Shown: positions 2,956 to 8,802 of the stretch, piece by piece
How positions within the stretch are numbered: position 1 is the first letter of the stretch
Layout of the letters: every line of letters begins with the position of its first letter
DNA from: an uncultured Ruminococcus sp.
GTDB taxonomy: Bacteria; Bacillota; Clostridia; Oscillospirales; Acutalibacteraceae
Direction of reading: 5' to 3'
Length of the DNA: 9,229 bases
NCBI GenBank assembly: GCA_902773155.1
Contig: CACYDK010000184.1
Coordinates: 1 to 9,229, forward strand
Made by a program: the position numbers and the translations under genes
Notes under the pieces: model-generated
Seen by the model: only the letters and a program-made list of their open reading frames with translations
What the model was told of the DNA's origin: nothing
Databases searched by the model: none

Positions 2956-3186
2956 TGTACCCCTTTTTAAAGGGGTGCGAATTGTTGCGAGCGTAGTGAG
3001 CCAATTCGCGGGGATCGTGTAGCGGAGCGGTCTCACAGATGAACTTCATCTTAAGGAGGAGTAATCCCCCAAAATCGAGCCCCTTGGGCTAACGATTTTG
3101 ACCCTCTTAGCGAGGGCGGCACCCCTTTTGTCAGCCATTTGCTGACATTTCCCCCAGCGGGGGAATTTCCTTTAAAAAGGGGTACA
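2956..3186. mobile_element. MITE-like multi-hairpin repeat with perfect 18-bp terminal inverted repeats
   Basis: TGTACCCCTTTTTAAAGG at 2956-2973 is the exact reverse complement of 3169-3186, bounding 231 bp with no coding capacity. Inside are consecutive hairpins: GCGAATTG/CAATTCGC (2977-3009), AGATGAA-C-TTCATCT (3037-3051), a two-part stem AAAATCG-AGCCC/GGGCT-CGATTTT (3071-3099), CCCTC/GAGGG (3102-3116), TGTCAGC/GCTGACA (3129-3147) and TTCCCCC/GGGGGAA (3149-3165). TA dinucleotides next to the CCCC/GGGG ends would fit a TA target duplication as in Tc1/mariner (IS630) elements, but this is only suggestive. It lies between the XRE terminator and the degV stop codon and may end degV transcripts. 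Whether it is dispersed in the genome cannot be seen from one copy. Confidence 0.6.
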
Positions 3187-5443: not shown

Positions 5444-7045
5444 ATGAAAAAAATAATCTCAATTTTACTTTCCGCGCTTATGGTTTCGGGCGTTTTCGCC
5501 GCGTTGCCCTTCGGCGCGACTGCCGCCGCTAAGCCCGTTAAGCTCAGCAAAACCTCGGCGACCCTCACGATCACCGAAAAGAACGGCAAAAACGTATACG
5601 GCACAACTAAAATCAAGCTCAAAAAAGCCAAGGGCGTTAGCGTAAAAAGCACGAGCTACAAATGCTCGAACAAAAAGACCGTTACTGTAACGAAAAGCGG
5701 AAAAATCACCGCGAAAAAAGAGGGAAAAGCCGTTGTTTCGGTTAAGGTAAAATACACCGCAGCTAAGAAAAAATCCGGTAAGAAAAAGGTGTACTCTGCA
5801 AATCTGACTTTCAGGGTAACGGTTGTAGACAATAGACCTAAGGCCGAGGCCGTTACTGAGCCCGCTCCGACAGAGGCACCCACAGAGGCTCCGACCGAGG
5901 CTCCCACAGAGGCTCCGACAGAGGCTCCCACAGAAGCTCCTACCGAGGCACCTACTGAGGCACCTACTGAGGCACCTACAGAAGCGCCCACGGAAGAGCC
6001 TACAGAAGCGCCCACGGAAGCGCCCACAGAAGCACCCACTGAGGCTCCGACAGAGGCTCCGACAGAGGCTCCGACAGAAGCTCCCACAGAAGCTCCCACA
6101 GAAGCTCCCACAGAGGCTCCCACACAGGCTCCCACCGAAACTCCCACACAGGCTCCTACAGAAGAGCCCACAGGAACGGATCCCCAATATGACGAGAACG
6201 GCAGATTACCCTATGACGGCGAGCCTTGGGTGAACAAAGAGGAAATTGTTCCCACCAATTATGAAATCACCTTTAATTTAGTAATTGAAGCGATCTATTC
6301 CGACTGCTTCTTCGGCCGTCCGCTCACTTCTCTGCCGGAGTACTATAAGATCAACGACCACCTTAGCGATGATTGGTGCGTAGGCGACCGTGTTACCTGC
6401 ACCTGCCGTAACGTTTACTTCAGTAACGACTACAGCGAACATGTTGAGGGCGATCTGGTCAGCATCTTGCCCTCCACGTTCGAGCCTGACCCTGACGTTT
6501 GCTACAAGCCGGTAATCTACTTATATCCCGACGAGAAAACCGACGTCAGCGTAAAGCTCGACATTAACGGCAAATTCACCTGCACATATCCGTCCTACGG
6601 CGACGGCTGGAACGTCACCGCGAACCCCGACGGAACTCTCACCGACAAAAACGGTATGGAGTACAGCTACCTCTTCTGGGAGGCCAAGCTCAACGCCGAC
6701 TACGACTTTTCAAAGGGCTTCTGCGTTAAGGGCAGCGACACCGCAGCCTTCCTCGAGGACGCTCTCGCTAAACTGGGACTCAACCGCCGCGAGGCAAACG
6801 AATTCATCGTATTCTGGCTTGAGAAAATGCAGAAAAACCCGTACAACATCATCTCCTTCCAGCAGGAGGCTTACACAGACGCGGCCAAGCTGAACATCGA
6901 CCCCAATCCCGATACTCTCATCCGGGTATTTATGGCGTGGAAGCCGTCCGACAGCTTCACCGAGCTGCCAGCGCAGGAGCTTACCGCTCCCGAGAGACAG
7001 GGCTTCACCGTTGTTGAATGGGGCGGAACAATGGTCAGCCGCTAA
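5444..7045 (+). CDS. Secreted protein: basic Ig-like region, PTEA linker, KPVIYLYP domain
   Basis: Of the 533 residues, 1-28 are a signal peptide (MKKIISILLSALMVSG, cleavage near ATA-A). Residues 32-130 resemble a bacterial Ig-like Big_2 domain (SGKITAKKEGKAVVSV at 85-100) and are very rich in Lys. Residues 142-241 are 25 PTxx tetrapeptides, an acidic, proline-rich linker. The C-terminal part (about 246-533) carries CYKPVIYLYP (353-362), GDGWNVTANPDGTL (386-399), YLFWEA (409-414) and EFIVFWLEKMQ (453-463). I recall this KPVIYLYP-type domain from many secreted Clostridia proteins but know no function for it. There is no LPXTG signal, C-terminal anchor helix or dockerin, so the protein is probably released or held through the basic domain. 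AGGAGA at 5434-5439 sets the start. A strong terminator follows. Confidence 0.88.
   Translation: MKKIISILLSALMVSGVFAALPFGATAAAKPVKLSKTSATLTITEKNGKNVYGTTKIKLKKAKGVSVKSTSYKCSNKKTVTVTKSGKITAKKEGKAVVSVKVKYTAAKKKSGKKKVYSANLTFRVTVVDNRPKAEAVTEPAPTEAPTEAPTEAPTEAPTEAPTEAPTEAPTEAPTEAPTEAPTEEPTEAPTEAPTEAPTEAPTEAPTEAPTEAPTEAPTEAPTEAPTQAPTETPTQAPTEEPTGTDPQYDENGRLPYDGEPWVNKEEIVPTNYEITFNLVIEAIYSDCFFGRPLTSLPEYYKINDHLSDDWCVGDRVTCTCRNVYFSNDYSEHVEGDLVSILPSTFEPDPDVCYKPVIYLYPDEKTDVSVKLDINGKFTCTYPSYGDGWNVTANPDGTLTDKNGMEYSYLFWEAKLNADYDFSKGFCVKGSDTAAFLEDALAKLGLNRREANEFIVFWLEKMQKNPYNIISFQQEAYTDAAKLNIDPNPDTLIRVFMAWKPSDSFTELPAQELTAPERQGFTVVEWGGTMVSR
5867..6166 (+). repeat. Tandem 12-bp repeat, 25 units, encoding (PTEA)n
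   Basis: Exactly 25 in-frame 12-bp units encode PTEA, with variants PTEE at units 11 and 25, PTQA at 22 and 24, and PTET at 23. Synonymous codons vary between units (CCG/CCC/CCT, ACA/ACC/ACT, GAG/GAA), while the 12-bp period is kept. Such arrays change length by slippage in whole units without frameshift. They also create long spurious ORFs on the opposite strand. Confidence 0.95.
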
Positions 7046-7797: not shown

Positions 7798-8802
7798 TCA
7801 GGATTTAATACTCACTCCGCTGTTGAACGCATTGTCGCTTACCTCGCAGCCGGAAGGAAGCTTCACGCTTGTAAGCGCGCAGTCCGCGAACGCGTTGCTG
7901 CCGATCGACTTTATCTCGTCGGAGAACTCGACCTTCGAGAGAGCTTTACAGCCGTGGAAGGCGTGGTTACCTATGGATGTGATGTTGTCGGGGAATTCCA
8001 AGCCGGATATTTTAGCGCAATTCTCGAAAACTCTCGTGCCGACAGACGGGAGGCCCTTTCCGAATTCAACCTTTTTCAGATTGGAGCAGCCCTTGAAGGC
8101 GGCGCCGCCGAACACATTGACGCTGTCAGGTATCTCGACTTCGGCAAGGCTTTCGCAGTTCTCAAATGCGGAATCGCCGATCCTGATTACGCTGTCGCTT
8201 ACGGAAATCTCCTTGAGGTCTTTACAGCCGAAGAAGGTATAGTCGTTGATCAGCGTTGTCTTTTTTGGTATCTCAAATTCTTCGAGCCCCGAATTCTCGA
8301 ACGCGTGCATATAGATAGCGCTTACATTGTCGGAAAGCTCGAGTTCCTTAAGCTTTGAGCAGCCGCTGAACGAGTAGCCGCCTACGCTGGTCAGCGTGTC
8401 GGGGACTTTTACCTCTTTGAGTGAGGCGCAATCCTTGAAGGCGCTTGAACCGATACCCGTGATACCCTCGGGGATAACTACCATGACGAGCTTTGAGTTC
8501 TCAAAAGCGTTCGAGCCTACGCGCGTTACGGCCTTACCGCCGATTACTGAGGGAAGGGTGACCGAGGTCAGCTTTTTGTCCTTTAGTCCGGTGATAGTCA
8601 GCTCGCCGTCCTCCGACTCGTATTCTACCTTGTCGTAGTCGCCGTCGTTCTTTACCTTCGGCTTCTCAGCCTCGGTCGCGGTCTGAGCGGCGTCGGTCGC
8701 CTTGTCAGCGGTTTCGGTGTTTGAGCCGCAGCCAGCGGCGAACATCAGCAAAGCAGCCGAGAAAACCGCGATGAGCGAAGTCAGTTTTCTTTTTGTTTTC
8801 AT
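7798..8802 (-). CDS. Lipoprotein with BspA-type leucine-rich repeats (LRR_5)
   Basis: The 334-residue protein starts with a lipoprotein signal: MKTKRK, hydrophobic core, and lipobox FAAGC with Cys25 as the lipid-bearing residue after cleavage. A Thr/Ala/Glu-rich spacer (26-50) probably lifts the domain off the membrane. From about residue 81 to the end there are about eleven repeats of 22-24 residues with the LRR_5 (BspA) pattern, for example VxIPDSVxxIGxxAFxxCxxLKE. Known LRR_5 proteins bind host or surface ligands, or are of unknown role in gut Clostridia; no enzyme domain is present here. GGAGGT at 8808-8813 sets the start five bases on. It has its own promoter and is separated by 198 bp from the PH gene, without an obvious terminator, so some read-through is possible. 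Confidence 0.92.
   Translation of the reverse strand: MKTKRKLTSLIAVFSAALLMFAAGCGSNTETADKATDAAQTATEAEKPKVKNDGDYDKVEYESEDGELTITGLKDKKLTSVTLPSVIGGKAVTRVGSNAFENSKLVMVVIPEGITGIGSSAFKDCASLKEVKVPDTLTSVGGYSFSGCSKLKELELSDNVSAIYMHAFENSGLEEFEIPKKTTLINDYTFFGCKDLKEISVSDSVIRIGDSAFENCESLAEVEIPDSVNVFGGAAFKGCSNLKKVEFGKGLPSVGTRVFENCAKISGLEFPDNITSIGNHAFHGCKALSKVEFSDEIKSIGSNAFADCALTSVKLPSGCEVSDNAFNSGVSIKS

Follow-up and report, generated by a model that had tools for sequence, protein, structure and literature searches.

Bacterial MITEs include RUP, Correia and similar repeats. As far as the accessible parts of the cited reports describe them, several other systems are also relevant to the element described herein. 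First, the hupL MITE family of Thiomargarita nelsonii has been tied by its authors to a PD-(D/E)XK-type nuclease gene, and not to a DDE or HUH transposase (PMC4853749). Second, the EDxHD group, including I-Bth0305I, is counted among the homing-endonuclease families (PMC3943268). Third, a DUF559 protein of Caulobacter has been described as Vsr-like (PMC12907096). A literature search, with most subscription journals outside its reach, yielded no description of hairpin-ended DUF559 elements. In the present study, the ends of a short hairpin element from an uncultured Ruminococcus sp. are shown to be related to those of larger elements bearing a DUF559 gene.

The window, i.e. the whole stretch of 9,229 nucleotides that was analysed, is an entire contig (G000:C184; G numbers denote genomes) of a fragmented 1.54-Mb genome in 227 contigs. 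The original prediction described a 231-bp element with perfect 18-bp inverted ends and a run of at least six stem-loops in non-coding DNA between a terminator and the degV stop codon, carrying far more structure than is usual in intergenic spacers, and all of these features were recovered. Positions 2956-2973 and 3169-3186 are perfect reverse complements (18/18), the arms reaching 21 nt at 95% when extended, and at least six hairpins lie inside the 231 nt. The + strand folds at -110.5 kcal/mol against a shuffle mean of -72.6 (z -7.67) and the - strand at -107.0 kcal/mol against -68.5 (z -8.63), so that both strands are about 8 s.d. better than shuffles, with 0 of 200 shuffles as low on either strand. 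The outermost T and A of the 231 bp vary among copies, and the unit therefore runs from GTAC to GTAC, as the 229 bp of 2957-3185 (GTACCCC...GGGGTAC), which are non-coding and contain no ORF of 80 aa or more. This copy sits between convergent genes, a helix-turn-helix gene (2661-2894, Pfam HTH_3, + strand) on one side and the degV stop (- strand) on the other; a crude ORF call had labelled it codirectional, but these are its real neighbours. The terminator-like hairpin belongs to the helix-turn-helix gene, and gene and hairpin together occupy 2661-2942. A search of the window against Rfam gave 0 matches that reach the gathering score. The parts of the element are as follows.

2957-3185, central domain reading on the - strand (the degV strand): whole element; copies end in GTACCCC/GGGGTAC, and orientation is given relative to the core of the relative in genome G066
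2957-2976: terminal palindrome P, GTACCCCTTTTTAAAGGGGT, self-pairing; the terminal palindromes keep self-pairing across 35 copies
2977-3009: hairpin HP2, self-complementary and compensated across 35 copies
3010-3069: central domain, bounded on its two sides by GGGGAT (3010-3015) and ATCCCC (3064-3069); it is here that the G066 relative has its DUF559 gene
3070-3100: hairpin HP1, with pairing kept across 35 copies
3101-3168: extra module, lying between HP1 and the degV-side end and made up of three hairpins at 3102-3116, 3130-3146 and 3149-3165
3169-3185: degV-side end, CCTTTAAAAAGGGGTAC, a perfect inverted copy of the other end

The window copy is a long form, with the 68-bp module at 3101-3168, and the short copies C24 and C77 of the same genome are without it. 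Relatives of the module occur in G012 and G003 within repeats having other ends, and the module lies at the opposite end in other pieces from the own genome; it looks like a second hairpin unit nested in the core. In G012, a relative of the module is contained in many composite hairpin repeats (L002, L007, L011, L014, L017 and others), which are nearly identical and have ends of TGTAGGG type. Elsewhere in the window, a 533-aa protein that looks secreted has an APTE-type linker encoded by a 12-bp tandem repeat (5864-6173, 25.8 copies), and the - strand at 7798-8802 encodes a leucine-rich-repeat protein of BspA type whose start resembles that of a lipoprotein.

A dispersed structured repeat was among the readings first offered for this DNA, and the copy search of the host genome agrees with it. 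Using blastn, 24 pieces of the element were obtained in the own genome, including a full copy of 97% identity (C143), a third of 84% (C94), two short ones of about 165 bp (C24, C77) and a diverged copy (C78), as well as several that are truncated where a contig ends. The flanks differ from copy to copy, and thus near-identical copies are present in different places. The end motif has 24 sites in this genome (21 exact and 3 with one mismatch), against 0 for a reversed-pattern control, and is thus not due to chance. Short stretches like AATTGCGAATT/AATGCGCAATT were seen beside six of the eight own copies checked (L001, L006, L013, L016, L024, L040) and are perhaps another small repeat. Three own copies (L006, L024 and L040, i.e. 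C143, C202 and C120) lie between similar terminator-like hairpins (like GAGGCTGTCGC... and AAAGGGGCGTCGC...), as though they belonged to a larger repeat.

In comparisons using one genome per species, the end motif with at most one mismatch was found in 30 of 161 congeneric genomes, with 77 sites in G066, 28 in G054, 23 in G119, 22 in the own genome, 8 in G149 and 5 in G005, and the reversed control gave 3 matches in total. The covariance model of 35 copies matches 13 of the 161 genomes, four of which hold many copies; with scoring limited to 19 candidates per genome and palindromic copies able to match twice, once per strand, match numbers are not copy numbers. Beside degV, no end motif was present in any of 28 readable relatives (the best 30 loci from 158 matching genomes, 29 of them not own, less L111, where the contig ends 1 bp after degV). 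A single copy conserved at this one locus, with stems that do not covary, had been named as the outcome that would speak against the original prediction; what was found are several copies, absence beside degV in all 28 relatives and covarying stems.

The orthologous junctions of 13 sister copies were sought with joined flanks against the genus, the best two candidates per genome being scored. Of two copies on G054:C37, copy b is missing at the orthologous gene junction in G118, G007 and G148, and copy a in G108, G070 and G005. The copy-a site holds a lone palindrome of about 22 bp in G118 and a different one of 17 bp in G007; lone palindromes are present at other places too, and these may be deletion scars or seeds. 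For the own-genome copies, none of the matches listed (best two candidates per genome) spans a junction, which is not evidence of absence. A TA duplication had been anticipated on comparison with empty sites, and this comparison resolved neither a TA nor any other target duplication: outside GTAC, none was seen in the flanks of 20 copies or at orthologous sites, and GTAC itself could be one.

The copies have a common layout, namely P, HP1, a central domain closed by GGGGAT/ATCCCC, HP2 and P, and covariation was analysed in an alignment of 35 of the 48 complete elements. In this alignment, 97.7% of the cells of the local structure are paired, and 99 cells are changed on both sides, compared with 30 for shuffled and no more than 7 for slid versions; further pair types were not above shuffles (23 vs 23.0 over the 35 copies). 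HP1 comprises 244 Watson-Crick, 1 G-U and 0 mismatched cells, HP2 218, 0 and 4, the left P 279, 1 and 0, and the right P 270, 3 and 7, giving 1011 Watson-Crick, 5 G-U and 11 mismatched cells in total. The central GGGGAT/ATCCCC stem is not kept likewise: of its 209 cells, 15 are G-U and 17 mismatched. In some copies, one end reads GTGTCCC rather than GTAC, and in 14 copies the right end is compensated as GTCCC...GGGAC, so that P pairs with itself and no longer fully with the left end. A long end-to-end stem had been considered as the conserved fold and was replaced by local palindromes after these right ends appeared; none of its pairs changed on both sides. The covariance analysis suggested at the outset thus gave a divided answer, in that the short hairpins covary through double Watson-Crick changes and the long left-right stem does not. 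Because the short hairpins compensate and the end-to-end stem does not, the units are local, nearly perfect Watson-Crick palindromes.

Variable hairpin pairs switch almost only among Watson-Crick pairs, and this points to DNA palindromes. A structured RNA, or an intercistronic mRNA element kept for regulation, might also have covarying stems, and it would suit the position of many copies, 35 of 42 classifiable ones (44 given; crude ORF call) lying in short gaps between codirectional genes, with median gaps of 30 and 19 bp. However, an RNA stem would tolerate G-U pairs, of which only 5 were counted among 1011 Watson-Crick cells, and the patchy distribution (13/161), the absence at orthologous sites and the lack of an Rfam match make this explanation very improbable. 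The stable small RNA of the original prediction gained no support from these same pair changes or from Rfam. Template switching in quasi-palindromes can make such perfection without selection. If this process made the hairpins, with copies spreading only by recombination, the covariation would have no functional meaning, and the shuffling of modules among elements would be in keeping with it. Nevertheless, near-identical copies (97%) in different flanks, together with constant GTAC boundaries, suggest the movement of a defined unit, and we regard template switching as a highly improbable account of the family.

Coding relatives with the same ends were observed in sister species. In G066:C247, a 506-bp element (L300:762-1267) consists of P, HP1, GGGGGATTATCTTTCCT, a 117-aa DUF559 ORF, GACCGCTACGCTAGACAATCCCC, HP2 and P, and the gene occupies the position of the central hairpin of the short copies, between both halves of the short element. 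In G119, a 975-bp element (L133:6883-7857) with 75-bp inverted ends (73/75) encodes a DUF559 protein (E 9.6e-30). These elements share with the short element the terminal palindrome, the flanking hairpins and the GGGGAT/ATCCCC boundaries. The ends of the G066 element agree with those of the nearest short copy at 59/70 and 62/66 positions, with the 35 aligned copies at medians of 84% and 74%, and with own-genome short copies at 61/70 and 47/66 (no more than 46 and 44 for shuffled own ends). The right end of the window copy agrees with the G066 element at 48/66 positions (shuffled at most 43), and its left 70 nt are no better than shuffled (42/70) because the nested module intervenes. In addition, a DUF559 gene abuts a complete element in G005, and a decayed DUF559 gene abuts a lone palindrome in G036, after an upstream coding sequence that is alike by eye. 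Within the G119 element, the extra hairpin module is present in repeated copies, as is the right half of the element itself.

DUF559 is present in 68 of the 161 congeners, and its co-occurrence with the family is weak (9/13 vs 59/148 genomes, p 0.04 with no correction for relatedness). The own genome, a fragmented assembly with copies at contig ends, gave 3 DUF559 candidates and 0 matches, and no DUF559 was detected either in G007, G134 and G149, which also hold the element family. In the stretches examined between end pairs 0.5-4.5 kb apart, there was no transposase, and the gene within matching ends was DUF559; the other ORFs looked at between distant end pairs are presumably host genes, SipW-like and proB.

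These results bear on two explanations involving a transposase. In an ordinary IS-derived MITE, a DDE transposase recognising the GTACCCC ends would move the element and DUF559 would be the cargo of some copies. Inverted ends, a short non-coding unit and intergenic dispersal are typical of such MITEs, and the transposase survey covered two domains (Y1_Tnp and DDE_3) out of many families; on the other hand, no target duplication was observed in the copies inspected, DUF559 and no transposase was seen between the distant end pairs, and DDE_3, the IS630-type domain that would fit a TA site, occurs in 7 of 161 genomes and in 0 of the 13 with the family. This explanation is therefore unlikely, and its IS630-derived form was rejected upon the absence of DDE_3 from all 13 family-holding genomes. 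Alternatively, a Y1 tyrosine transposase (RAYT) might move a REPIN-like element in the form of single-stranded hairpins, as the intergenic position, the palindromic ends beside a GTAC tetranucleotide, two in inverted order, and the presence of Y1_Tnp genes in 80 of 161 congeners would allow. Yet Y1_Tnp has no match in G000 (0 candidates), G054, G066 or G005, and one broken copy in G119; it is not associated with the family (6/13 vs 74/148, p 0.71); and the tag is GTAC, as opposed to the GTAG given for REPs in the accessible text of PMC3733652. The RAYT/REPIN model was rejected on the absence of Y1_Tnp from the own genome, the missing association and the unmatched GTAG tag, and it seems extremely improbable.

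The coding relatives, as distinct from the window copy, carry a nuclease whose predicted structure is of homing-endonuclease fold. The AlphaFold2 model of the G066 DUF559 protein (pLDDT 90.6) was matched by Foldseek to the endonuclease-like protein 3hrl (TM 0.85) and the homing endonuclease I-Bth0305I (3r3p, TM 0.81, E 1.2e-5), with Vsr (1vsr) lower down (E 0.022), and a profile search finds I-Bth0305I by sequence (E 4e-5). The protein has 363 homologues at E of 0.001 or less, and E22, D49, E60, D62 and H66 are invariant in 41 aligned sequences.

The DUF559 genes of the genus often lie within hairpin inverted repeats, and repeats of this kind extend beyond those with GTACCCC ends. When the upstream flank of each DUF559 gene is compared with its downstream flank, the best inverted match has a median of 18, with 26 of 39 loci above 13 and 13 at or below it; the 39 loci are related across species and not independent. 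They were derived from 51 loci (L133, L267-L316; the 30 best-scoring, 20 hand-chosen and L133), which gave 44 distinct motif rows once duplicates, loci lacking the motif and a frame interrupted by a stop (L267) were excluded, 5 then being dropped for short flanks. Among control loci with enough flank, degV (27 of 29) had a median of 9 and a maximum of 13, with 0/27 above 13, and Y1_Tnp (19 of 20) had 2/19 above 13 and a maximum of 17. Flanks with swapped partners gave a median of 9 and reached 19 at the 95th percentile because the same end types recur in different elements. Sampled across the class, DUF559 was present in 40 of 148 genomes, and 12 of 17 scored loci exceeded 13 (21 of 30 loci were given, of which 3 lacked the motif and 1 had too short a flank, and these 4 were dropped).

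Moreover, one gene junction was compared across species (L270, L327-L352), the gene after it being, as we assume, argS-like. At this junction, G150 has a 557-bp DUF559 element and G113 a DUF559 gene plus hairpins; gene-less hairpin elements are found in G064 (158 bp), G041 (164 bp) and G100, G080 and G026 (287-288 bp); the inserts in G097 (386 bp) and G128 (220 bp) do not share these ends; and G029, G052, G099, G120, G012 and G040 have 0-33 bp. No target duplication outside GTAC was seen here. The junction looks like an insertion hotspot, with hairpin-ended inserts, with or without DUF559, in about 10 of 15 species.

Herein, we propose that the window element is a gene-less, MITE-like member of a hairpin-ended family whose members in sister species carry DUF559, that it likely arose by gene loss, and that DUF559 proteins, acting as homing-type nucleases, are predicted to spread it in trans; we consider this reading, on balance, the probable one. 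The MITE-like element of the original prediction is supported by the dispersed, non-coding copies with inverted ends, their absence at orthologous sites, the covariation of the stems and the coding relatives with like ends. That DUF559 moves the window element is what we infer from these relationships. First, DUF559 would cut DNA at or near palindromes, or at empty sites. The element would then be copied in during repair of the break, and gene-less derivatives would use the same ends as the DUF559-bearing elements. The window copy would have moved while a DUF559 gene was present, or such a gene might have escaped assembly. However, DUF559 could be a passenger, because some DUF559 genes are without inverted flanks (13/39 at or below 13). 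More tentatively, and with somewhat less than even confidence, we suggest that DUF559 genes drive a large, unnamed class of mobile elements without a transposase in Clostridia. In these, a homing-type nuclease would lie between rows of DNA palindromes and give rise to swarms of gene-less hairpin elements that fill intergenic gaps, the window element being one of them. If true, the hairpin-rich intergenic repeats of Clostridia would have a likely parent, and a widespread nuclease family of unknown function would have a role, namely mobility without a transposase.

Compared with the known systems, as far as the accessible parts of the cited reports describe them, the element resembles bacterial MITEs (PMC10969869) in being short, non-coding, strongly folded, nonautonomous and dispersed between genes with inverted ends. 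Ends in common with a larger coding element, by which MITEs are recognised, are those of the DUF559 elements in G066 and G119, although the gene of this coding relative is a nuclease and not a transposase; in addition, no target duplication was resolved, and local palindromes are conserved rather than an end-to-end stem. The hupL MITE of Thiomargarita (PMC4853749) is likewise a MITE family linked to a nuclease gene, but there the gene is YhgA/PD-(D/E)XK_2, whereas here it is DUF559, of Vsr/EDxHD-like fold, in Clostridia and with rows of hairpins as ends. I-Bth0305I (PMC3943268) has the fold of its catalytic domain in common with the DUF559 protein, but is intron-encoded and multi-domain, whereas DUF559 here is a single domain of about 117 aa between hairpin ends, with no intron seen. 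On the accessible text, REPINs and TIRtrons are the nearest in design: REPINs and REPtrons with RAYT (PMC3116915; PMC3733652) and TIRtrons (PMC3733652) share with the present family the use of inverted palindromes as a nonautonomous mobile unit, and a coding element flanked by the same repeats. In contrast, the family described herein has GTAC in place of GTAG, three of its four richest genomes have no Y1 transposase, and the gene between its repeats is DUF559.
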